Positions 8,949 to 50,168 of a DNA stretch of 64,000 nucleotides are shown here, one piece after another. Source of the DNA: Polyangiaceae bacterium (lineage in GTDB: Bacteria > Myxococcota_A > Polyangia > Polyangiales > Polyangiaceae); the NCBI GenBank assembly GCA_020846005.1, contig JADLEQ010000040.1, positions 62,001 through 126,000 on the forward strand. The letters are read 5' to 3'. A model generated the notes under the pieces. That model did not search any database and was not told the origin of the DNA. It saw only the letters and a program-made list of their open reading frames with translations. Each line of letters starts with the position of its first letter. The stretch's first letter is position 1. A program made the translations under genes and the position numbers.

Positions 8949-10487
8949 TCACTTCGGCGCGTCAGCGGGGGGCGGCGTCGCGCCGTCGCCACCAGCGGGC
9001 GGCTGCCCACCACCCGTCCCCGGCTGGTCGGCGTCCGGCGCGCTCGATTGTGTGGCGGCGCGCTGCTTCTCTTCCTCTTCCATCCGCTTGCGGTCCTCTT
9101 CGCCGGCCTTGAGGAACTTGATCATGTCCTCGATGTCCTGCGCGCGCTCCTTCGAGCGCTTCACCGCGTCCGCGAACACCGGGTCCGCGCCCGCCTTCGA
9201 AATGAACTGCCGGTACAGGCCGGCCGCCGCCTCGAGGATGGGGATCGTCTTGGCGGCGCCCGTCTCCCCGGAGACGGACTTGGCCTTGTACTCCTGCGTG
9301 AGGATCGCCTCGTTGTAATAGGGCTCCGCGCGCGAGGGATCGGCCTTCTTGGCGAGGTCGAGGTGCTTCTGCGCCTCCGCGACGTACTTGTCGAAGTTCG
9401 AGTCGTCGATCTGGCCGCGGATCGCCAGCGCGAGGCCGAGGTGCGCCTCGAACTCGTTGGGACGGAGCTTGAGCGCGTCGCGGTAGGCCTTCTCCGCCTC
9501 GGCGAAGCCGCGGAAGGAGATGTTGACCGCCGCGTAGTTCATGTGCGCCTCGAAGAACTTCGTGTCGAGGCGGCGCGCAGCCGCGAAGCTCTTCACGGCG
9601 CCGTTGAAGTTGCGGAGCTCGACCTGGATCAGGCCCGCGGTGTTGTGGATCGGCGCGTAGTTCGGGTTCTTGCGGACCGCCTGGCCAGCGACGAGCGCGG
9701 CGAGGTCGAGCATCTGGTTGTTGACCTGGGTCTTCTTCGCGCCAGCGACGACGAGCGTGCGCCGGCGCTGCTTCTTCGTCGCCTTGTCCTTGTCCTTCTC
9801 GGACGCCGCGCGCGCCTGCTCGAGATAGTAGATGGCGAGCTGGTTGAACGCCGGCATGTAGCTGTCGTCGATCGCGAGCGCGCGCTGGAGGTTGCGCTGG
9901 GCGCGCTCGAAGTCGTTCTTACCCTCGCCGTCGGCGACGTCGTTGCCGCGCTCCATCTGCAGCGCGGCGAGGCTCACCAGCGCCTCGACGTTCTGGAACT
10001 TCGCGTCGCGGATGATCTGGTCGAGCTTGCGGATCGTAGCGTCCAGATCCGGCGTCTTCGCGTGATCGTAGAGGACGAGCTGCGCCCGGGCGCGGTGGAA
10101 CCCCGGATCGGCCTTGGCGGCGGCCTCGAACTGGGCGCGGGCGTCGGCGTCCTTGTCGCAGCGCGCGTAGGCGAGCCCCGCGTTGTAGTGGGCCTCAGGG
10201 AATTTCCCTTGGGACTTCGCCGCGGCGACGAACGCGTCCCCGACCGACTTGCACGTCGCCTCCGACCAGTCGCCGGCCTTGTCGCGCTGCGTGAAGTCGC
10301 CGAGGGCTGCCTCGTACCCGGCCTTGGCCTCGGCGCGGACGACCTGACCGCTCGTCGTCTTGTCCGCGCCCTTCCCCGCCTTGCCGACGGGGGTGGTATC
10401 GGTGCCCGCTCCTGCAGCGGCGCCCCCGCCGCACGCGGCGAGGAGGAGCGCCCCGGCGACGACGAGCGCGTGGTTCACCTGGCTCAT
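8949..10487 (-). CDS. gltE: GltE (AglT)-like TPR outer-membrane lipoprotein
   Basis: 512 residues, ATG at 10487, 32 bp after gltD. The signal ends in LLLAAC with Cys19 lipidated. TPR-type helices fill about residues 85-420, including NPNYAPIHNTAGL and LRPNEFEAHLGLAL units. The C-terminus (450-512) is an acidic coiled segment followed by a Gly/Pro-rich tail. In M. xanthus GltE is a TPR lipoprotein of the gliding complex encoded right after gltD, matching the order here. The open frame extends upstream to 10787, but the lipoprotein signal only fits a start at 10487. Confidence 0.82.
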   Translation of the reverse strand: MSQVNHALVVAGALLLAACGGGAAAGAGTDTTPVGKAGKGADKTTSGQVVRAEAKAGYEAALGDFTQRDKAGDWSEATCKSVGDAFVAAAKSQGKFPEAHYNAGLAYARCDKDADARAQFEAAAKADPGFHRARAQLVLYDHAKTPDLDATIRKLDQIIRDAKFQNVEALVSLAALQMERGNDVADGEGKNDFERAQRNLQRALAIDDSYMPAFNQLAIYYLEQARAASEKDKDKATKKQRRRTLVVAGAKKTQVNNQMLDLAALVAGQAVRKNPNYAPIHNTAGLIQVELRNFNGAVKSFAAARRLDTKFFEAHMNYAAVNISFRGFAEAEKAYRDALKLRPNEFEAHLGLALAIRGQIDDSNFDKYVAEAQKHLDLAKKADPSRAEPYYNEAILTQEYKAKSVSGETGAAKTIPILEAAAGLYRQFISKAGADPVFADAVKRSKERAQDIEDMIKFLKAGEEDRKRMEEEEKQRAATQSSAPDADQPGTGGGQPPAGGDGATPPPADAPK

Positions 10488-10519
10488 GGGATGCCTCTGT
10501 TGCTTCGGGTGGTACACGG

Positions 10520-13500
10520 TCACTTCCCTCCCCCGGCCGGCTTGGCGGCCCCGCCCTCGCCGGGCTTCGGCTTCTCGGGCTCCGTGGATGGCGGCGCGGT
10601 GATGAGCGGCTCCCCGCCGATCTTGAGCGGGTACGGGCGCTCCTTCAGCGTGCTGTTCACGCGGCTCGCCGAGCCGGAGAACTCGTCCACGAGGTGGTAC
10701 TCGGACTTGTAGTTCTCCGCGAGCCAGGCCTCGCACGCGCGGGAGTATTCGTCGAAGTACTGATATTTCACCGAGTACTCGAGGCACGTCCGGTAGGCGC
10801 CCTTGGCGACCTGCTTCTGCGGCTCGGAGCTCTCATCGAGCGCCGCGAAGTACGCCTGGCGCAGCTCCGTGTCGCGCTTGAAGGACTCCGGGATGGGAGC
10901 GGCGCGGAACTCCTTGACGAAGGTGGCCCACATCTGCCCCACGCGCGAGCCGGCCGCGATGACCCACCGCGGAGGCGGGACGGGCTGCAGATCGATGATC
11001 TTCTTGTACTCGGCCGTCGCCTCGTCGATCAGCGGCTTCTTCTTCTTGATCCAGTCCGCGACCTTCGTCTGGATGTGCTTGAGCACCTCTTCCTTGGTGC
11101 CCGGCCCCTTGTACTCGGGGAACTTGACGGCATCGACCTTCGCGCGCTTCTGCTCGGCGAAGTAGAACAGCGCCTCGCCGACCGCCTCGAGCGCGCGACC
11201 CAGGCGGCGCTGCTTCGCGCCCTCGTCCTCGGGGAGCGCGTCGATCTCGGCGAGCGCCTTCTTCGGATCGCTCCACAGCTTCACGACGGTGCCGTACTCG
11301 GCGCCGGCGTTCTGGCCGCGGTTCATCCGAACGTACGTCCGCCCGAGCAGCGCGTGCGCCTGGACCTTCACGTCCAGGGTCGCCTTGCCGTCGATCAGGC
11401 CCATCGCGCCGGTCAGCCGCTTCCTGACGTCCTCCCACTGTTGCTTCTCCGAGTAGTGGGCGGCCACCGCGAAGGCGATCTGCGCCGCCTGGGCGGGCTT
11501 CTTGGCGCCGAAGTAGCGGTTGTAGTCGTTCGCCGCCTTGATGGCCTCGTCCTCCTGGCCGAGGCCGAGCCGCAAGACGACGGTGTCGCTCAGGGCCTGG
11601 TCCGCGAACTCGCCCTTGTACTTCGTCGCCTCGGCGTAGCGGACGTAGAAATCCGCCGCGCGGTCGTAGACGGCGATGGCCTGGTAGTTGCCGCCGATCT
11701 CGTAGGTCGCCTTCATGGCGAGATCGGTCTTCTCCAGCTTGTACTTCGGGTTGAGGAGGATGAGCCGGGCCTGGATCGACTTCGCCAACAGGCGCGCGGC
11801 CTGGTAGGCGCGAGCCATGTTGTAGACGATCTCGTCCATCTTCCCGCACTGGGACTTCTCGCCCTTCGCCAGCGGCTCCTCGCCGTACACGCGCCAGAGC
11901 TCGAGGTAGGCGTCGCCGCCCTCCTTGTACTTGTCGAGCGCCTCGCGGGTCTGGCCCTTGTCCTGCAGCGAGTCCGCGAGCTCGACCGTCTTCTGCGCGC
12001 GCATGCGCCGGATGTCGCACTGAATGCGGTTCAGGAGCTCGCACTGCTCCTTGTTGTCCTCGGCCTTCTTGCCCTGGCAGAAGCGCTCGAGGAGCAGCGG
12101 GACGTCCTTGCCCATGTCGTCGAAGCAGCTCGGCCGCGGGGGTTCGGCGCGCGCGCCGAGCACGTTGATGGCCTCGAGGTACAGCTGCGCGGCGTAGATC
12201 GCGGCGTCCTTGTCGGAGTGGTTCATCGCCACGTCGCGGAAGCCGAGCGCCGCCTCTTCCCAGCGCTGCGCCTCGAAGTACGTGCGCGCGCGAGCGTATT
12301 TCACCTCGACGTACTGCTCCTCCGCGCTGGTGTCGCCCTTGGGCGGCTTGATGTAGCAGACGTAGCGGTTGAAGGCCGTGAGCATGCCCTTCTGGAGCGG
12401 GGTCAGCTCCTTCGGCTTGAACCGCTCCCACTCGCCCTTCTTGGCCTCCTGATCCGATTTGTCGGCGCCCTTCGGACCGAGGCCCTTGCCCTTGCGGTCC
12501 GCCTCGCCCTTGTACATGGCGTCGTACATCTTCTGGTAGCAGAGCACCGCGGCGTAGGCGGCCTCGGCGGCGTCCGCGCCCGTCGGATTCTCGGCCACGA
12601 CGGCGTCGAAGGCTGGCCCGCACTCCTCCCAGCGCTGCTGGAAGTAGAGGAGGTCAGCCATCGCGTACTTGATCTTGTAGAGCGTCGGCCAGTCTTCCTT
12701 GACGATGCGCGGGAACTCGAACTTGGCGAAGTCCTGGCTGGTGAAGGTCTCGGAGATCCTCTTGTAGAGGTACGCCGCGAGGTCCATCGTCTTCTTGTCG
12801 CCGGTGCCGCGCACGCCGCCGGAGCCGACGGCCTCGAGGTGCCAGCTCATGCCCGTCTCCGCGAGGAGCTCGGCCGTCTTGTTGTCGCACTCGAGCTTCG
12901 CGTCGGCCGGGTGCTCCGACTTCTGGTACTGGTTGCGCATCGCGATCTGCGCGTCCATCTCCTTGCGGATCGCCTCCTTGTCGCTCGCCTTGACCGCGCT
13001 GGTCGCGCCGGTGATCTGCGCCTGGTAGAAGCACTCACGCTTGCCCTTGTCCCGGACCATGAGGTCCCGGTACAGCGTGATCGCCTCCTTGTAGTGGCCG
13101 GTGTCGAGGTAGGCGAGCCCGAGCTCGTTCAGCATCTCGATCGTCTTCGTCGTCTCGCCGCCCTTGTCTCCGGACAACGGCTTGAAGAAGCCGAACGCCT
13201 GCTCGGGCACGCCCGACACCGCGTAGACGGGGATGAGATCGCGCCGGGCCGACTTCGCGAGCTGCGCGGCGTTCGGCAGGGTCGCGTACTGCTCCCCGTA
13301 CTCGATCACCTTCTTGAACTCGCTCATCGCCTCCTTGTAGTTGCCCTGGTTCCAGTGGACGTACCCGAGCTTGTACCGGGCGTAGCCGTAGACTTTGTTC
13401 TCCGGCGGCGGGTACTTGATCACCTCAGCGTAGGCGCCCTCGGCGAGCGCCCACTTGTTCGGGTCGCCGAGCGCCTCCTGATAGAAGAGCTCGCCGAACG

Positions 13501-40555: not shown

Positions 40556-40621
40556 ATGCGTCAACCGGAGGAGGCGAGGCGGCGGGGAGCCGCGCAGGGC
40601 GTACGGTGCGGAGGCGGATGA
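40556..40621 (+). CDS. Possible 21-codon leader peptide before the nitrate-reduction operon
   Basis: An ATG at 40556 opens a 21-codon frame, Arg/Gly-rich, whose TGA (40619-40621) overlaps the ATG of the cytochrome-b-like gene (40618) as ATGA, the same junction used throughout the operon. The ribosome site is weak (GAAG). It may be a chance frame or a coupling leader. Confidence 0.25.
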
Positions 40622-41766
40622 GCCCGGAGGCTGCGCGCTCGGTCGGCTGGGGCGCCGCGGCGACGCTGGCGGTCACGGTGCTCATCCTCGTCGGGTCGCG
40701 TAACCTCGCGCACTTCGACGCCGCGCTCGTCGCCTACACGTTCGCCGTGCTCTTCGCGACGTTCGGGCTCGCGTATCGCTACACGATGTGGCTCCAGCGC
40801 CCCCCGACCGCCCTCTACTGGCGGCGCGGGTGGCAGGCGTTCCTCCAGCCGGGAGCGTGGCTCGGGAACCTCGCGTCGTGGACCACGCGCTTCGCCTCGG
40901 ACGTGCTCGCCAACGCGTTCATCTTGCGGCGCGATCGGTCGCGGGGCGTGGCCCACCTGCTCATCATGTGGGGATGCCTCATCGCGGTCGCCATCACCTT
41001 CCCGCTGGTGTTCGGCAACCTTCATTTCCGCGCCGTCCCAGGTGATCTCTCGCGGTACGAGGCGATGGTGTCCGGGTTCCCGGCCTTCCGCTTCGAGCAC
41101 GGCTCGATGGTCGGCAAGTTCCTCTTCCACGGGCTGGTGTGGGCGTCCTTCCTCGTCCTCGCCGGCGTGATGCTGGCCGTCCGGCGGCGGGTCCGCGAGC
41201 AAGGCGCGGGCGCCGTGCAGCGGTTCGCCGAGGACTTCATGCCCCTCATCCTCTTGTTCGCCGTGAGCCTGACGGGCCTCCTGCTCACCGCCAGCTACAC
41301 CTGGATGTACGGTTACGGGTATACCTTCATCGCGATCCTGCACGCCATCACGGTGATCGGGACCTTCCTGTGGCTCCCCTTCGGGAAGCTGTTCCACGTC
41401 TTCCAGCGCCCGGCGCAGCTCGGCGTGCGCTTCTACAAGGACGCCGGCCGCGCCGGCGAGCCCGCGCTGTGCCGGCGGTGCGGGCACGCCTTCAGCTCGC
41501 GGATGCACGTGGAAGATCTCATCGAGGTCGAGCGCAAGCTCGGCTACACCTACGAGGTCGCTGACGGCGAGGTGCGGCACTACCAGTGGATCTGCCCGCG
41601 CTGCCGGCGGGCCTCCTTCGTGACGGCGCAAAGCCTGCTGTGGCAGGGTACGCGAGGCGGCGGGTCGCTCGAGGGATCGGGGGCGCTACCGATGCCGCGA
41701 TACGCCAACCCCGGCGAGGGCGCGGGGCCGCTCGGCGCGGAGGACGCGGAGAACTACCACCCATGA
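40618..41766 (+). CDS. Cytochrome-b-like membrane anchor of the nitrate reductase, with C-terminal zinc ribbon
   Basis: 382 residues; the ATG at 40618 has GGAGGCGG directly upstream, better than a GTG at 40606. About six membrane helices are seen (15-35, 40-60, 110-135, 175-195, 215-235, 245-265). Histidines inside or near helices ([32 protein letters not shown]) resemble heme-b ligands of NarI/HdrE-type subunits that oxidise quinol. After the last helix come two CxxC pairs (LCRRCGHAF and ICPRCRR) about 65 residues apart, a likely zinc ribbon. It opens a five-gene overlapping operon and probably passes quinol electrons to the ferredoxin and molybdopterin subunits. Confidence 0.8.
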
Positions 41767-44078
41767 GCGACGAGCAGCCTCCGGAGGGGAGCGCCCCGGC
41801 CGCCCGTCGGTGGCCGGAGCCCCCGCTCGAGCTGGAGACGATCCGGCGCTTCGGCCCGCACCGCGTCGACGCGCGCAGCGCCCGGCTCACCGCCGCGCGG
41901 GCGGACGAGCGGCTGGTGAAGACGCACTGCTGCTTCTGTGGACAGCAGTGCGGGGTGCAGCTCGTAGTGTCCGGGGAGACGGTCGTCGGGGTGGAGCCCT
42001 GGTACGAGTTCCCCTTCAACCAGGGGATGATGTGCCCGAAGGGCGTCAAGCGGTACCTGCAGCAGTCGCACCCGGACCGCCTGCTCCGCGCGCTCGAGCG
42101 TGACCCGGGGTCCCCCGGTGGTTTCCGCGAGCTGGGGTACGAGCGCGCGATCCAGCGCGTCGCAGGCGAGATCCGCCGCCTCCAGGAGCGCCATGGCCCC
42201 GAGTGCATCGGCATGTTGTCCGGCGCCAGCCTCACCAACGAGAAGGCCTACCTGATGGGGAAGTTCGCGCGGCTCGCGCTGCGCACTCCCTACATCGACT
42301 ACAACGGCCGCCTGTGCATGGTGAGCGCAGGATCGGGGAACAAGAAGGCGTTCGGCGTGGATCGCGCGGCGAACCCGTGGTCCGATCTGCTGGGCGCCGA
42401 GGTCGTGCTGGTGAGCGGCGCCAACGTCGCCGAGTGCGCGCCCATCACGACGAACTACATCTGGCAGGCGCGGGAGCACGGGGCTCGCGTCATCGTGGTG
42501 GACCCGCGCCTCACGCCGCTGGCCCGCACGTGCGATCTCTTCCTGCCGGTGCGGCCGGGGCGCGACACCGCGCTCTTCGCCGGCATGCTGCACCTGATGA
42601 TCGAGCACGACTGGCTCGATCACGAGTTCATCGAGCGTCACACCGTGGGCTTCGAGGCCGCCGCGGCGGAGGTCCGGGAGTGGACGCCACGCCGCACCGC
42701 CGAGGTCACCGGCATCGCCGAGCGCTCGATCGTGCGCGCCGCCGAGCTGTGGGGCCGGGCGAAGACGAGCTTCCTCCTGCACGCGCGCGGGCTCGAGCAC
42801 CACAGCCACGGCGTGAAGAACGTGCTCTCGGCGATCAACCTCGTCCTCGCCTCGGGGCGGATCGGGCGCGCGAGCTGCGGCTACGGGACGATCACCGGTC
42901 AGGCCAACGGCCAGGGAGGGCGCGAGCATGGGCAGAAGTGCGACCAGCTCCCCGGGGGGCGCGACATCTCCGATCCGGAGCACCGCGCGCACGTCGCCGC
43001 GGTGTGGGGCGTCCCGGTCGAGGCGATCCCGGGCCCCGGCGTCGACGCCTACGAGCTGATTCGACGCATCGACCGCGGTGAGATCAAGGGGCTCCTCAGC
43101 CTGTGCTTCAACCCGCTGGTCTCACTGCCCGATAGCGGCTTCGTCCGCCAGGCGCTCCAGAAGCTCGAGTTCTTCGTCGCGATCGACTTCTTCCTGAGCG
43201 AGACGGCGCGGCTCGCGCACGTCGTGCTCCCGGGCTCGCTCCAGGAGGAGGACGAAGGGACGATCACCCAGGTCGAGGGGCGCGTCATCCGTGTCCGCAA
43301 GGCCGTGAGCTGCCCCGGCGAGGCCCGGGAGGACTGGCGGATCGTGCAGGATCTCGCGCGGGCGCTCGACCGCGCCGCCGGCTTCTCGTTCACGCACCCT
43401 CGCGAGATCTTCGAGGAGCTGCGCCGCGCGTCGAAGGGCGGCGTGTGCGACTACTCGGGCATCACGTGGGAGCAGGTCGAGCGCGAGCTCGGCGTGTTCT
43501 GGCCGTGCCCGGCGGAGGTCCCGCCGGGCGCGCGGCGGCCGGCGGCGAACGGCACGCCGCGGCTGTTCGAGCCGGGCTCGTGGAACCCGATCGCGCGGGG
43601 CGCCGGGCCGTTCTTCTTCCCGGATGGCAAGGCCCGCTTCCACGCGACCCCGCACACGGGGCCTGCCGAGGACACCGACGACGCCTACCCGATCCTGCTG
43701 ACGACCGGGCGCGTCGTCAGCCACTTTTTGTCCGGCAACCAGACTCGACGCATCGGGCCGCTCATCGACCACTTCCCCGAGCCCCGGCTGGAGATCCATC
43801 CCCGCCTGGCGGAGCGCCTCGGCGTCGCAGACGCCGACTGGGTCACGGTCGAGAGCCGGCGCGGGAGCTGCACGCTGCAGGCCTGGGTCGTGCGGACCAT
43901 CCGTCCGGACACCGTGTTCGTCGCGTATCACTGGGGGGGGCGCCGCAGCATCAACCAGGTGACGAACTCGGCCCAGGACCCGATCTCGAAGATCCCGGAG
44001 TACAAGGCGTGCGCGGTGCGGCTCCGCCGGGCAGAGGGCCCGCCGGAGCACGCGCAGCGGCTGGAGCCGCAGCAATGA
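41763..44078 (+). CDS. Molybdopterin nitrate reductase catalytic subunit (NarB/NasA/NapA-like)
   Basis: 771 residues; ATG overlaps the preceding stop (ATGA). The N-terminal 4Fe-4S site is C56-x2-C59-x3-C63-x27-C91. Cys185, in [10 protein letters not shown], aligns with the molybdenum ligand of assimilatory and periplasmic nitrate reductases. Typical bis-MGD contacts follow: [34 protein letters not shown], and the C-terminal [20 protein letters not shown]. There is no Tat signal, so it should stay in the cytoplasm. The genes for ferredoxin, Rieske and three NarK transporters follow, making nitrate the likely substrate. Another oxyanion cannot be excluded. Confidence 0.9.
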
Positions 44079-44740
44079 GCGTCGACGCGCGGGACGCGCG
44101 CGTGTTCTTCGTCGATCCGGGGCGCTGCATCGGCTGCCAGAGCTGCGTGCAGGCGTGCACCGAGTGCGACACCCACCGCGGCCGGTCGATGATCCAGCTC
44201 GACGTGCTGGACCGCGCCCGCTCTCCGCAGACGGCCCCGGTGGTGTGCATGCACTGCGAGTCCCCGACCTGCGCCGAGGTGTGCCCGGCGGACGCCATCA
44301 AGCGGACGGAGGACGGCGTCGTCCAGTCCGCGCGCAAGCCCCGGTGCATCGCTTGCAACAACTGCGTGCTCGCCTGCCCCTTCGGCGTCCCGAAGATGGC
44401 CTCTTCCCTCGATCTCATGATGAAGTGCGATCTGTGCTATGACCGCACCTCGGTGGGACTCAAGCCGATGTGCGCGTCCGTTTGCCCGAGCCAGGCGCTG
44501 GCGTACCTCACGCCGGATGAGCTGGCGCGCCTCCGCCCGGCGGCGCGGCCGGTGAACACCTTCCGGTTCGGCGCGCAGGCGATCACGACGAAGGTCCAGG
44601 TCCTGGTACCGCGCGGCGCCCCCGTGGAGGTGATCGACGTGACGGCGGCGATGCACGAGCCGTCGCTGGGCCACGAGGTCGCCGCGGAGGTGTTCGACGC
44701 TGTGCTCGAGGGCGCCGACGCCCCGGAGGGGCGGTCATGA
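44075..44740 (+). CDS. Four-cluster 4Fe-4S ferredoxin subunit (NrfC/DmsB-like)
   Basis: 221 residues, ATGA overlap with the catalytic gene. Four cysteine groups for [4Fe-4S] clusters are visible: [35 protein letters not shown] and C-DLC ending in CASVC. It would wire the membrane subunit to the molybdopterin enzyme. No export signal, consistent with a cytoplasmic side. Confidence 0.93.
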
Positions 44741-45291
44741 GCCCGCGCCCGCCGCGCCGGGTCGAGCGCTCGGCGGCGCCCGATGGCCGGCCCGCCCACG
44801 AGCAGCCACGGTGGCGGCAGGATTTCCCGGTCGACTGGGGCGACGCCGACTACGTCTCGCGGCGGGATCTGGTGAAGTTCCTGGTGCTGACGAGCGCGGC
44901 GTTCGTGGCCGGGCAGCTGTGGATGGTGGCGCGGAGCTTCCTCCAGCGAGGCAAGCCGGCCCCCGAGGCGCGCGCGGTGGCCGCGCTCGACGAGCTCCCG
45001 GTCGGCGGCGCCAAGACGTTCGAGTACCCCGAGGGGAGCACCCCGCGGCTGCTCGTGCGCACCGCGGCCCGCGAGTTCGTCGCCTACGACCAAGCGTGCA
45101 CGCACCTGCTCTGCCCGGTCGTCCCGGCGGTGGCGGAGGGCAAGCTCCACTGCCCCTGCCACAACGGGTGGTTCGACCTCGCGAGCGGGCGGCCGGTGGC
45201 GGGGCCGCCGCAGCGGTCGCTCCCCAGGGTGCTCGTCGAGCTGCGCGGCTCGACGGTCTACGCGACGGGCGTGGAGGAGGGGGAGGCGTGA
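44737..45291 (+). CDS. Membrane-anchored Rieske [2Fe-2S] protein
   Basis: 184 residues, ATGA overlap with the ferredoxin gene. [10 protein letters not shown] motif followed by a hydrophobic helix (about 41-62) looks like an uncleaved twin-arginine signal-anchor. The Rieske ligands are C121-T-H123 and C139-P-C-H142, with C126 and C141 available for the usual disulfide. If exported by Tat, it lies on the opposite side of the membrane from the ferredoxin and catalytic subunits. Confidence 0.92.
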
Positions 45292-45518
45292 GCGCCGACG
45301 ATCCTCGCCGCCTGTCGCGCGCGCAGCGGATGCCCATCGTCAACGGCATCCTCGCGTTCGTCTTGCTCATCGTGATCGTCCAGCTCTGGTTGCTGACGGC
45401 CACGGTGAACGCCTACCTCGGCGGCGACACGGACGTTGCCCTCCCCGCGTTCGGCGCCAGCGTCCTGTGCCTCGCGCTCAACGCGGGGCTCCTGGGCTAC
45501 CTCCGCCGGCTCGACTGA
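45288..45518 (+). CDS. Small two-helix membrane protein of the nitrate-reductase operon
   Basis: 76 residues from a GTG that overlaps the Rieske stop (GTGA). Membrane helices at about 18-40 and 53-71. No motif beyond that; I recall similar small DUF proteins next to such Rieske genes. It may stabilise the membrane part of the complex. Confidence 0.75.
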   Translation: MSADDPRRLSRAQRMPIVNGILAFVLLIVIVQLWLLTATVNAYLGGDTDVALPAFGASVLCLALNAGLLGYLRRLD

Positions 45519-45822: not shown

Positions 45823-47130
45823 ATGCACGTCGCCGCGTTTCAGGACAAAGGATTCTGGAAGGCTGGGCACTGGCCCACGCTGCTCACGTCCCTCCTCTAC
45901 TTCGACTTCTGCTTCGCGGTGTGGGTGCTAAACGGCGCGATGGCGCCCTTCATCAGCAAGGAGTTCGGGCTCGATCCGGCGCAGAAGGGCTTCATGATCT
46001 CGGTGCCGGTGATCGTGGGCGCGTTGATGCGCTTCCCGCTCGGCCTGCTGAGCCAGTACATCGGTCGCAAGGCCGCCGCGCAGGTCGAGATGGGGATGAT
46101 CATCGCCGGCCTCGCGCTCGGCTGGCTCTACGTCGAGACGATGGCGGGCGTCATCGCGATGGGCTGCGTGCTCGGAGTGGCGGGCGCGTCGTTCGGTGTG
46201 GCGTTGTCGCTGGGCTCGGGCAGCTACCCGCCCAAGTACAAGGGCCTCGCGATGGGGATCGCGGGCGCCGGCAACTCCGGCGCGGTGCTCGCCGTGCTCT
46301 TCGCGCCCCCCCTCGCGCAGACGTACGGCTGGAAGGCGGTGTACGGCATCGCCATCGCGCCCATCGCGTTCGCGATGCTCATGCTGCAGCTCTTCGCCCG
46401 CGAGCCGGACGATCGCGAGCACAAGAGCCTCCGGGGCCACCTCGAGATCCTGCTCGACCGCGACGCGTGGATCTTCAACCTGATGTACGCCCTCACCTTC
46501 GGCGGCTACATCGGGCTCACGAGCTTCCTCCCCACGCTGTTCCACGACCAGTACGGCATCCCGAAGGAGAGCGTCGGCAAGTACGCCGCTGGCATCATCC
46601 TCATGGCGAGCATCCTGCGCTTGGTGGGCGGCGGCATGGCGGATCGCGTGGGTGGGCTCCGGATGATCCGCTTCCTCGCCGTGGTCGCCGTGGCCGGCAC
46701 GGCCGCGGCGGCCGGCCTGGTGCTGTCCGGAGGCGGGCCGCTCTCGAGCCCGTGGGTCATGGTCGCGGTGATGGTGGTGCTCTTCTCGGCGCTCGGCGCG
46801 GGCAACGGGGCGGTGTTCCAGCTGCTGCCGCTCCGCTTCCGCGGCAACACGGCCGTCGCGGGGAGCCTCGTCGGCGAGATCGGCGGGCTGGCCGGCGGCT
46901 TCCTCCCCAACGCGATGGGGCTCGGCGCAAAGTACACCGGGCTCGGCTTCACGCCGGGCTTCCTCGCCGGGACGGCGCTGTCCGTCTGCATCCTGATCGC
47001 GCTCGCCCTGGTGATGCGCCGCTGGACGACGACGTGGGTCGGTGAGGGTGGCAGAGCGCGACCGGAAGATGTATCGTCCGCCGCCACGGACGGCGGCGAT
47101 CCCCCACTCGGCGCCGCTGCGCCAGGCTGA
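45823..47130 (+). CDS. NarK-type nitrate/nitrite transporter (first of three)
   Basis: 435 residues, MFS fold with 12 hydrophobic helices. Nitrate-porter signatures are present in both halves: MGIAGAGNSGAVLAVLFAPP at about 145-164 and LGAGNGAVFQLLPLRF at about 325-340. The sequence type is that of NarK1 proton-coupled nitrate importers. It ends 11 bp before the second transporter gene. Family role: nitrate uptake for the upstream cytoplasmic reductase. Confidence 0.9.
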   Translation: MHVAAFQDKGFWKAGHWPTLLTSLLYFDFCFAVWVLNGAMAPFISKEFGLDPAQKGFMISVPVIVGALMRFPLGLLSQYIGRKAAAQVEMGMIIAGLALGWLYVETMAGVIAMGCVLGVAGASFGVALSLGSGSYPPKYKGLAMGIAGAGNSGAVLAVLFAPPLAQTYGWKAVYGIAIAPIAFAMLMLQLFAREPDDREHKSLRGHLEILLDRDAWIFNLMYALTFGGYIGLTSFLPTLFHDQYGIPKESVGKYAAGIILMASILRLVGGGMADRVGGLRMIRFLAVVAVAGTAAAAGLVLSGGGPLSSPWVMVAVMVVLFSALGAGNGAVFQLLPLRFRGNTAVAGSLVGEIGGLAGGFLPNAMGLGAKYTGLGFTPGFLAGTALSVCILIALALVMRRWTTTWVGEGGRARPEDVSSAATDGGDPPLGAAAPG

Positions 47131-47141
47131 CCGAGGACTCG

Positions 47142-48551
47142 ATGAGCCAAGAATCGACCGCCCAAGCTCCCGCCGCCGAGAGCGGCGGGATCGTCATCCA
47201 GGGTTCGTGGATCGAGCGCTGGGACAAGGAAGACCCGAAGTTCTGGGCGTCCGGCGCGTCGAAGATCGCCTGGCGGACGCTGCTCATCACGACGGCGTCG
47301 CTCACCTTGTCGTTCGCCACGTGGTTCGTGGTGAGCGCCCTCGTCGTCCGCCTCCCCGCCATCGGGTTCAAGTTCACCGAGAGCGAGCTGTTCTGGCTCG
47401 CGGCGATGCCCGGGCTCGCGGGCGGCACCCTCCGCGCGATCCACATGTTCCTGGTCCCGAAGTTCGGGACCCGAGCCGTGGTGGCGGTCGCGACGCTGTT
47501 GAAGGTCGTGCCGTGCGTCGGCCTGGGCTTGGCGGTGATGGACCCGACGACGCCGTGGTGGGTGTTCATGGTGCTCGCCTTCTTGGCGGGCATGGGGGGC
47601 GGAGACTTCTCGTCCTTCATGCCGAGCACGAGCATGTTCTTCCCGAAGCGGCTGCAGGGCACGGCGCTCGGCGTCCAGGCCGGGATCGGCAACTTCGGCG
47701 TGAGCCTCACCCAGTTCGTCACGCCGTGGATCATCGGCTTCGCGGTCTTCGGTTCCCTCGGAGGGGAGCCCCAGACGCTCACGAAGGCGGGGAAGACCTC
47801 CAGCGTCTGGCTCCAGAACGCGGTGCTCTGGTACGTGCCGCTGCTGGTCGCGATCAGCGTCGCCGCGTGGATCTGGCTCCGCAGCGTGCCGTTCAAGGCG
47901 TCCATCCGCGAGCAGCTCGACATCTTCTCCAACAAGCACACGTGGTTCTGCACGCTGACGTACGTGATGACGTTCGGGGCGTTCTCGGGGTTCGCCGCCG
48001 CGTTCCCCATGATGATCAAGAGCTTGTACGGCGACTTCCCCGGCGCGCCGGACCCGCTGACGTACGCGTTCCTGGGCCCGCTGATCGGCTCGGCGGCGCG
48101 CCCGGTGTTCGGCTGGCTCGCGGACAAGACGGGCGGCGGCATCCTGACGCAGCTCTCGGGTCTCGGGCTCATCGGCTGCTCCATCGCCCTCGTCGCGACC
48201 GGGGCCCTCGCGCCCACCTCGCTTGAGTCGTTCCCGCTGTTCGTCGGGCTCATGCTCGGCATCTTCTTCTTCACCGGCATCGGCAACGGCTCCACGTTCC
48301 GACAGTATCCGGTGATCTTCGCGGACAACCCGCGCCAGGGCGCCGGCGTCCTCGGGTTCACCGCGGCCGTGGCCGCCTACGGCCCGTTCGCGTTCAGCCT
48401 CCTCGTCGGCGCGGCCATCTCCTCCTCGAAGGCCGCCACCGGCACGAAGGACGCTTCGTCCTTCTTCATCGGCGCCATCGTGTTCACCGCCATCGCGACC
48501 GCCGTGAACTGGCGCTACTACGTCCGAAAGGGTTGCGAGCGCCCCTGCTGA
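47142..48551 (+). CDS. NarK-type nitrate/nitrite transporter (second; NarK2/NarU-like)
   Basis: 469 residues. An N-terminal soluble stretch ends in DKEDPKFWASGASKIAWRTL, the entry typical of NarK2/NarU. Signatures GVQAGIGNFGVSLTQF (first half) and FTGIGNGSTFRQYP (second half) match the nitrate-porter motifs. NarK2-type members generally exchange nitrate for nitrite. Together with the first gene this gives the common NarK1-NarK2 tandem. Confidence 0.9.
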   Translation: MSQESTAQAPAAESGGIVIQGSWIERWDKEDPKFWASGASKIAWRTLLITTASLTLSFATWFVVSALVVRLPAIGFKFTESELFWLAAMPGLAGGTLRAIHMFLVPKFGTRAVVAVATLLKVVPCVGLGLAVMDPTTPWWVFMVLAFLAGMGGGDFSSFMPSTSMFFPKRLQGTALGVQAGIGNFGVSLTQFVTPWIIGFAVFGSLGGEPQTLTKAGKTSSVWLQNAVLWYVPLLVAISVAAWIWLRSVPFKASIREQLDIFSNKHTWFCTLTYVMTFGAFSGFAAAFPMMIKSLYGDFPGAPDPLTYAFLGPLIGSAARPVFGWLADKTGGGILTQLSGLGLIGCSIALVATGALAPTSLESFPLFVGLMLGIFFFTGIGNGSTFRQYPVIFADNPRQGAGVLGFTAAVAAYGPFAFSLLVGAAISSSKAATGTKDASSFFIGAIVFTAIATAVNWRYYVRKGCERPC

Positions 48552-48677
48552 GCCGGGCCAGGCCCACGCCGCCACGCCCCCGCCGCGCCGGCCCACGCCG
48601 CGCGCGCCCCGCCCCCGACCCACGAGCGGCCTCGTCGCACGGACGCGAGCCGCGCGCCGACCGCCCCGAGCCCCGTC

Positions 48678-50168
48678 ATGCCCGACCGAAAGCAGGCCAT
48701 CACCGCGCTCACGATGAGCACCCTCGCCTTCACGATCTGCTTCGCGGCGTGGATGCTGAACGGGGTGTTGGTCACGTTCCTGGTGGACAACGGCGTCTTC
48801 CGCTGGACGGGCAGCGAGATGGGCACCCTCATCGGCCTCCCGGTGCTGACCGGCGCTGTGCTGCGCTTGCCGATCGGCATCCTCACGGATCGCTACGGCG
48901 GCCGCCCGGTCTTCACCGGGTTGCTCGTGCTCGCCGCGATCCCCATGGCGCTGCTCGGCTCGGTGGGCGGGTACTGGGGCTACTTCCTCTGCAGCCTCGG
49001 CTTCGGCACGATCGGCGCGGGGTTCGCCGTCGGCGTGGCGTTCACGTCCGTCTGGTTCCCCAAGAGCCAGCAGGGGACGGCGCTCGGGATCTTCGGGGCT
49101 GGCAACGCAGGCGCCGCGATCACCACCTTGGGAGCGCCCGCGTTGCTCGGTTCGCTCACGGGGGGCGGTTCGAACCTCGACGCCTGGCGGCTGCTCCCGC
49201 GCCTCTACGCGGCCGTGCTCGTGGTGACGGCGGTGGTGTTCTACGCCACGACCAAGAACCGGGTCCCCGAGGGCGCAGCGCAGCGCAAGCTGGGCGATCT
49301 CGTCGCGCCCCTCCGCAGCACGCGCGTGTGGCGCTTCGGCTCGTACTACTTCCTCGTCTTCGGCGGGTTCGTGGCCCTCGCCCAGTGGCTCGTGCCCTAC
49401 TACACCAACGTCTACTCGATGTCCCTGGTGACGGCCGGGCTCATGACCTCGATCTTCTCGGGCCCCTCCGGCGTGATCCGGGCGCTCGGGGGCTGGCTCA
49501 GCGATCGCTACGGGGCCCGCGCGGTTACGCTGTGGGTGCTGGTGGTGACGGCGGTGTGCTGCGCGCTCCTCTTCTTCCCGAAGATGGACATCGAGTCCCC
49601 GGGCCGGGGCGTGATCGCGACCCGGGCCGGCACGGTCACCGCGGTGAGCTCCGCCTCCGTCCAGGTGGGAGACGTCGCGTACGAGCTCAGGACGCAGCCC
49701 CCGGGTGCCCGGAAGGCGTTCAGCGACTCCGACGTCGTCGTGATGCCGGTCATCCACTCGTGGCAGGTGCCGGCCGTGGCGGTCGGCGACGCGGTCACGA
49801 AGCGCCAGGTGCTCGCGCGCGGCGTCACGCACATCTATTTCCAGGCGAACGTCTGGATCTTCACCGCGCTGGTGTTCGCCGTGGGCATCGCCATGGGGAT
49901 CGGCAAGGCGTCGGTCTACCGGTACATCGCGGACTTCTTCCCGCAGAACGTCGGGGTCGTCGGCGGCACCGTGGGCGTGATCGGCGGCCTGGGTGGCTTC
50001 TTCTGCCCGGCCATCTTCGGCTTCCTCCTCGACTCGATCGGCCTCTGGACGACCACCTGGATGCTCCTCTTCGCCACCAGCGTCGCCTGCATCCTGTGGC
50101 TCGCAGTGGCCGTCCGGGCGGCGACCGCGCGCCACCCGGGAGAGGGCGGCGAGGCCGTCCCGGACTGA
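48678..50168 (+). CDS. Third NarK-like MFS transporter with an internal soluble insert
   Basis: 496 residues, MFS fold. LGIFGAGNAGAAITTLGAP at about 136-154 is the first nitrate-porter motif; the second half has VVGGTVGVIGGLGGFFCP. Between helices near residues 300 and 395 lies an insert of about 85 mostly polar residues. Its ends (AGTVTAVSSASVQVGD and VAVGDAVTKRQVLARG) resemble the two beta-hairpin halves of a biotinyl/lipoyl or barrel-sandwich domain. It lies 126 bp after the second narK. Likely substrate nitrate or nitrite, not proven. Confidence 0.85.
   Translation: MPDRKQAITALTMSTLAFTICFAAWMLNGVLVTFLVDNGVFRWTGSEMGTLIGLPVLTGAVLRLPIGILTDRYGGRPVFTGLLVLAAIPMALLGSVGGYWGYFLCSLGFGTIGAGFAVGVAFTSVWFPKSQQGTALGIFGAGNAGAAITTLGAPALLGSLTGGGSNLDAWRLLPRLYAAVLVVTAVVFYATTKNRVPEGAAQRKLGDLVAPLRSTRVWRFGSYYFLVFGGFVALAQWLVPYYTNVYSMSLVTAGLMTSIFSGPSGVIRALGGWLSDRYGARAVTLWVLVVTAVCCALLFFPKMDIESPGRGVIATRAGTVTAVSSASVQVGDVAYELRTQPPGARKAFSDSDVVVMPVIHSWQVPAVAVGDAVTKRQVLARGVTHIYFQANVWIFTALVFAVGIAMGIGKASVYRYIADFFPQNVGVVGGTVGVIGGLGGFFCPAIFGFLLDSIGLWTTTWMLLFATSVACILWLAVAVRAATARHPGEGGEAVPD

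Follow-up and report, generated by a model that had tools for sequence, protein, structure and literature searches.

What kind of enzyme is encoded by five adjacent genes at 40618–45518 in a stretch of DNA from a Polyangiaceae bacterium? The stretch, here called the window, comprises 64,000 nucleotides of contig JADLEQ010000040.1 from a genome of 5.7 Mb that is 99% complete and whose contextual kin are the Myxococcota. A sequence-only reading had described the genes as a composite nitrate reductase complex, neither classical NarGHI nor Nap, and had pointed to a puzzle. With a Rieske domain outside and the enzyme inside, electrons would have to cross the membrane through the b-type subunit, perhaps as a quinol loop. 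We lean towards reading the five genes as encoding a single membrane-bound nitrate reductase that is probably respiratory and works on the cytoplasmic side; in it the Rieske protein would be the first electron acceptor, most likely of menaquinol.

Five genes and their cofactor ligands

The genes are intact and lie on the + strand at the coordinates first given for them, and the first description of their products was correct:

40618..41766, + strand: subunit 1, NarI-like di-haem b membrane subunit
41763..44078, + strand: subunit 2, catalytic NasC-type Mo-bisPGD nitrate reductase with an N-terminal [4Fe-4S] cluster
44075..44740, + strand: subunit 3, DmsB/FdhB-like electron-transfer protein with four [4Fe-4S] clusters
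44737..45291, + strand: subunit 4, Rieske [2Fe-2S] protein with an uncleaved Tat-type anchor
45288..45518, + strand: subunit 5, DUF6755 two-helix membrane protein

All adjacent pairs overlap by 4 bases (ATGA or GTGA), which suggests that the five genes may be translationally coupled. Domains were assigned by Pfam and NCBIfam profile searches with curated cut-offs.

The catalytic subunit has Molybdopterin, Molydop_binding and Fe4S4 domains. It scored 52.5 bits against the NarG model TIGR01580 (cut-off 1084) and 238.8 bits against the NapA model TIGR01706 (cut-off 930.6). No Tat or Sec signal was found on it, and most operon members have no signal-like stretch in the 75 residues ahead of the first cluster. 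No NapB, NapC or NapGH partner is encoded within the operon, and no NarJ chaperone gene lies between or beside its genes. The earlier statements that the complex is neither NarGHI nor Nap, and that its catalytic subunit lacks a Tat signal, are thus borne out. Against the NasC equivalog NF047855 the subunit reached 760.8 bits (cut-off 1100); a nirB-linked mycobacterial NasC, at 789.9, likewise fell below. The Mo-ligating Cys and four Cys for the cluster are present in all members, as are the motifs NGRLCMxSA and TGQ/VGQxNGQG(G/A)RE, which are common to nirB-linked NasC. The trees group the operon catalytic subunits in a single clade, separate from assimilatory NasC, NasA, NapA and AioA; its support is 100/100 in the tree that includes NasC of Paenibacillus, Mycobacterium and Streptantibioticus. 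The sister group of this clade is assimilatory NasC; AioA as sister was not supported. Formate dehydrogenase identity was ruled out by the absence of its active-site motifs and by the tree.

Subunit 1 gave a weak Nitrate_red_gam/QmoC/TcuB match, followed by a C-terminal tail resembling a CxxC..CxxC zinc ribbon; its Pfam score as a NarI-type anchor was 21.1 (cut-off 22.9). The AlphaFold model (pLDDT 81.9) has six predicted transmembrane helices, a predicted periplasmic beta-hairpin loop at about residues 132–163 and a predicted cytoplasmic zinc-ribbon tail (C285, C288, C326, C329). Foldseek returned no significant match for this model. Structural realignment placed EtfD on top (Z 12.2) and then NarI chains, with Z about 11 over 172–187 residues at 20% identity, a value that is not decisive alone for helical bundles. 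In the profile alignment, H187 and H205 of NarI correspond to H242 and H260, with the same 18-residue spacing. H113, H242 and H260 are invariant in 55 of 55 aligned rows, and H171 is kept in 52 of 55. From these ligands and the predicted fold, subunit 1 appears to be a distant member of the NarI-type di-haem b anchors. H171, a haem-ligand candidate, has become Asn in the diverged copies at L005 and L008, the latter being the second of two copies in genome G021. The zinc ribbon was rejected as an essential element, its cysteines being lost in L006.

Subunit 3 is DmsB-like (Fer4_11, E 4e-19), with 16 ligand cysteines in four motifs. Fifteen of them are invariant over 45 rows and the remaining one is found in 44 of 45. 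All four motifs have 4 Cys, so the NarH-type non-4-Cys cluster is absent. No signal peptide was found on this subunit.

Subunit 4 matches Rieske PF00355 (E 4e-11). Its twin arginine (residues 42–43), which precedes a hydrophobic anchor, is present in 45 of 45 rows and confirms the Tat-like anchor noted earlier. C121-T-H123-x2-C126 and C139-P-C141-H142 are invariant: the cluster ligands C121, H123, C139 and H142 and the second, disulphide pair C126/C141 are each found in 45/45. Since the twin arginine and the disulphide pair never vary, the Rieske domain very probably lies outside. Position 144 is Gly and position 146 is Phe (44/45 each), where bc1 Rieske proteins have Ser and Tyr. In yeast, loss of this Ser or Tyr lowered the potential by 130 or 65 mV, as cited in PMC12954380, a paper that also shows an exception to the rule. 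Because both residues are replaced, the potential is expected to be rather low. The Rieske model (pLDDT 89.1) is closest in fold to AioB, with Z 15.4–16.7 (best match: rmsd 1.7 A, 107 residues, 32% identity), followed by dioxygenase ferredoxins and then Thermus bc1 Rieske (Z 12.4). By sequence alone, Thermus Rieske gave the best score. Subunit 5 is DUF6755 (PF20540, E 3e-28) with a QLWLLTATMNAYLGGD core, and is encoded in every complete operon.

Distribution and transporter linkage

When GTDB contigs were searched for subunit 1, 51 loci were returned, and in 43 of them all five genes stand in the same order. Three rows flagged for gene order were an artefact of stop-to-stop open reading frames extending upstream. 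The same operon is also carried by Deinococcus plasmids, besides these 43 loci. That all five recur so often in an unchanged order far exceeds chance. The record titles name Myxococcota, Chloroflexota, Planctomycetota, Acidobacteriota, Verrucomicrobiota, Bdellovibrionota, Bacteroidota, Cyanobacteriota and others, with Deinococcota added by the plasmids. Cultured isolates account for at least four phyla, a number that rises to about a dozen when metagenome bins are included. Isolates include Sorangium cellulosum So ceGT47, three Herpetosiphon species with intact operons and Lacipirellula limnantheis. In a Myxococcota sample, the operon was found in 9 of 282 genomes; it is thus sparse and scattered. 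The operon is a widespread conserved system, which the sequence-only reading had not noticed.

Several loci depart from the standard layout. In the type strain Herpetosiphon aurantiacus DSM 785 (L058, CP000875.1, about 9246–11157) the operon is broken: DNA with a TnpB-like reading frame takes the place of a lost segment that runs from the last part of subunit 1 through the whole catalytic gene into the beginning of the ferredoxin gene. The Rieske, DUF6755 and NarK genes are retained there, and the operon is intact in the other three Herpetosiphon species. At L046 (8944–11724) an orphan truncated subunit 1 is followed by flavodoxin-like and RIC/ScdA-like genes and by no other operon genes. At L033 (13082–14428) a gene for a 449-residue protein with a single CxxCH and no Pfam match lies between the ferredoxin and Rieske genes; relatives of this protein are encoded near the operons at L039 and L040. 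Labels also vary. In the RefSeq Deinococcus plasmid records the NarI-like subunit is called an 'MFS transporter' (L068, 4770–5882; L069, 3885–4997), and the catalytic subunit merely 'molybdopterin oxidoreductase'.

The right flank is readable for 42 complete operons, and all 42 are linked to a nitrate or nitrite passage protein: a SLAC1/TDT anion channel (PF03595) in 26 and NarK in 16. The channel gene nearly always starts at the end of gene 5. Most NarK genes directly follow gene 5, and five lie elsewhere within about 12 kb. Because such linkage is expected only for an enzyme working in the cytoplasm, it argues for reduction of nitrate inside the cell. If the Rieske domain is outside and the enzyme inside, electrons must cross through the b subunit, and this route is likely. 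The puzzle raised at the outset is real and conserved across operons, and the proposed crossing through the b-type subunit gains support from the 42/42 linkage. The earlier account is thus partly supported: it holds for the parts, the non-Nar, non-Nap identity and the topology, and the quinol loop that it asked about may apply. It had contained neither the anion-channel linkage nor the nrfHA linkage described below.

In the window, three diverged NarK paralogues stand in tandem (45823–50168) downstream of the single nitrate reductase operon:

45823..47130, + strand: NarK-family nitrate/nitrite transporter 1, TIGR00886 210.7 bits (cut-off 311.7)
47142..48551, + strand: NarK-family nitrate/nitrite transporter 2, TIGR00886 280.9 bits, NarU model 261 bits
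48678..50168, + strand: NarK-family transporter 3, TIGR00886 191.5 bits, with an insert of about 85 residues

The insert of transporter 3 (SPGRGVIATRAGTVTAVSS...KRQVLARG) is also found in the NarK adjoining the L054 operon (10672–12225).

Proposed electron path and its alternatives

We infer that the five products assemble as one complex and would work as follows. Nitrate would enter through the linked NarK, or through the SLAC1-type channel in other genomes, and be reduced in the cytoplasm by the NasC-type molybdoenzyme. The Tat-inserted Rieske domain would sit outside, over the outer haem, and serve as first one-electron acceptor, most likely of menaquinol. Electrons would pass from the outer face of the membrane to the outer and then the inner haem of the NarI-like subunit, then, beside the zinc ribbon on the cytoplasmic face, to the docked four-[4Fe-4S] subunit, and on to the molybdoenzyme. 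Menaquinol oxidation would release protons outside. With quinol oxidised outside and nitrate reduced inside, energy would be conserved as a redox loop like that of NarGHI.

A bolder version, which we hold tentatively and regard as doubtful, makes this a third architecture of energy-conserving nitrate reductase. In it a p-side Rieske cluster would be joined to an n-side molybdoenzyme via the NarI-like di-haem subunit, possibly splitting the electrons of quinol between Rieske and haem b. On the same tentative version, the architecture went unnoticed because annotation calls its catalytic subunit an assimilatory nitrate reductase or formate dehydrogenase. No conserved acceptor gene for the bifurcating form (one electron to Rieske and onward, one to haem b) was seen.

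Several findings weigh against a menaquinol-oxidising respiratory complex. No clear counterpart of H66 and K86, which belong to the quinol site of NarI, is seen in the profile and family alignments of subunit 1, and two copies have Asn in place of H171. The Rieske protein, without the potential-raising Ser and Tyr, is similar to AioB, which works with cytochrome c. NrfA is not commoner than expected in the small Myxococcota sample. In the window's genome NarG is present and neither NirK nor NrfA was found. Many carriers are metagenome bins, which may miss genes.

The main rival keeps the same complex and topology and changes the donor. A c-type cytochrome or a cupredoxin in the periplasm, standing for instance downstream of bc1 or alternative complex III, would reduce the Rieske protein, which would pass the electrons to the b haems. 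The enzyme would then be a cytochrome c:nitrate oxidoreductase. The potential of nitrate, +0.42 V, is high enough for such donors, and the quinol-site residues of NarI are not conserved. The Rieske fold is nearer AioB than bc1 Rieske, and AioB exchanges electrons with cytochrome c (8ed4). However, that likeness concerns the fold and not the partner. The conserved unit contains no cytochrome c gene, CxxCH genes near the operons being rare and variable, and the missing Ser and Tyr predict a Rieske potential ill-suited to a high-potential cytochrome c. Nothing computed separates the two donors. Menaquinol with Rieske as first acceptor seems the most likely version, and we consider the cytochrome c donor unlikely.

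It is quite improbable, in our judgement, that the catalytic and four-cluster subunits hitchhike outside with the Rieske protein through Tat, as AioA does with AioB, which would make nitrate reduction periplasmic. In AioAB the Tat signal is on AioB (PMC3758308), AioB has the nearest fold, and AioA has been placed in the Nas lineage (PMC7331816). However, AioA is not sister to the operon catalytic clade. Export would leave NarK or SLAC1 in 42/42 operons unexplained, and subunit 1 has its zinc ribbon and R-rich loops on the side that is cytoplasmic in NarI.

Equally improbable is an assimilatory nitrate reductase that draws its electrons from the membrane. The catalytic subunit is nearest assimilatory NasC, and among 42 carrier genomes a NIR_SIR-type protein was found in 24. 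It was not found in the other 18, however, of which 12 have NrfA or NirK. Unlike real NasC, the operons have no nirB, nirD or nirA among the recurrent neighbours of the loci examined, and the complete loci do not show the assimilatory setting, in which a soluble enzyme is linked to siroheme nitrite reductase and takes its electrons from a flavoprotein or ferredoxin. Instead, NarK-nrfH-nrfA lies directly downstream of the operon in Lacipirellula (L034) and the acidobacterial bin L054. Crp/Fnr-type regulators and hemerythrin/RIC genes are recurrent neighbours. ABC genes resembling nosF/nosY, a putative reading of the nos label, lie near the operons at L033, L047, L048 and L057.

Among the 42 carriers, NrfA was found in 23, NosZ in 14 and NirK in 9. 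Ten have NarG, in one case as fragments, and one has NapA; in 31 neither was found, which, like the nrf and nos-type neighbours and the carriers with NrfA or NirK but no NIR_SIR protein, speaks for a dissimilatory role. An enrichment of NrfA is not claimed: it occurs in 23/42 across phyla, yet in 3/9 Myxococcota carriers vs 55/282 genomes overall. The window's genome holds NarG and NosZ, while NapA, NirK and NrfA were not found; the complex is thus a second nitrate reductase in that genome. The window's catalytic subunit (41763–44078) sits on a longer branch than the relatives closest to it, and its subunit 1 deviates at nearly invariant positions (N134, S152). With NarG also in the genome, these departures perhaps reflect relaxed constraint.

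Reverse operation as a nitrite oxidoreductase, with nitrite electrons leaving through the b subunit and Rieske to cytochrome c, is permitted by the topology, by a NarK that could swap nitrite and nitrate and by a Rieske exit as in arsenite oxidase, but the nrfHA and nos-type linkage, the co-occurrence with NrfA, NirK and NosZ and a predicted Rieske potential too low to favour nitrite electrons (+0.42 V) make it highly improbable.

Relation to known nitrate reductases

The complex is like NarGHI in pairing a Mo enzyme, predicted to be cytoplasmic, with an Fe-S wiring protein and a di-haem b anchor of NarI fold in which two haem histidines keep the 18-residue spacing, and in its NarK linkage. 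It is unlike NarGHI in that its catalytic subunit is not NarG and has the Cys Mo ligand motif. It has four 4-Cys clusters, adds Rieske, DUF6755 and the zinc ribbon, has no NarJ gene and shows no evident H66 or K86 of NarI. With NasC/NarB of the Bacillus and actinobacterial type it shares a sister catalytic subunit, the same active-site motifs and the absence of a signal peptide. Known NasC, however, is soluble and nirB/nirD-linked, whereas all complete loci link a b subunit, a four-cluster protein and a Rieske protein.

AioAB is also built from a Nas-lineage molybdoenzyme with a Rieske partner, which has the closest fold (Z 16.7) and carries a Tat signal. Neither hallmark of AioA, the missing Mo-ligating Cys and the [3Fe-4S] cluster, is found in the operon catalytic subunits. 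AioA is not their sister in the tree, and Aio has no four-cluster or b subunit and oxidises arsenite outside. The haem b subunits QmoC, TcuB, TmcC and EtfD are the best NCBIfam matches of subunit 1 and its second fold match; however, it falls far below every curated cut-off, and the partners differ. The haloarchaeal Nar operon also combines a nitrate reductase with a Rieske protein (NarB) and a bc-type cytochrome b (NarC). Its NarG is exported and its cytochrome is of the bc1 type, whereas the operon described here has NasC and a NarI-type cytochrome.

Each part is of a known kind. The combination, NarI-like wiring with a NasC core and an AioB-like Rieske protein, is probably a new architecture of a probably respiratory nitrate reductase; it is new as far as found, and priority is not certain. 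Searches on the Rieske/NasC combination and on DUF6755 turned up no description in open-access full text, subscription papers and preprints being outside the search. According to PMC7331816, members of the Nas/Nap/Aio clade do not associate with subunits of the four-[4Fe-4S] or membrane-anchor kind; if our reading is true, the operon would be an exception to this statement. It also raises a clean bioenergetic question, namely the role of a Rieske centre across the membrane from the Mo site. If the reading is right, many bacteria counted as assimilatory, or as having no respiratory nitrate reductase, would carry one. Nitrogen-cycle annotation would change for Myxococcota, Chloroflexota, Planctomycetota, Acidobacteriota and Deinococcota, nitrate ammonifiers included.

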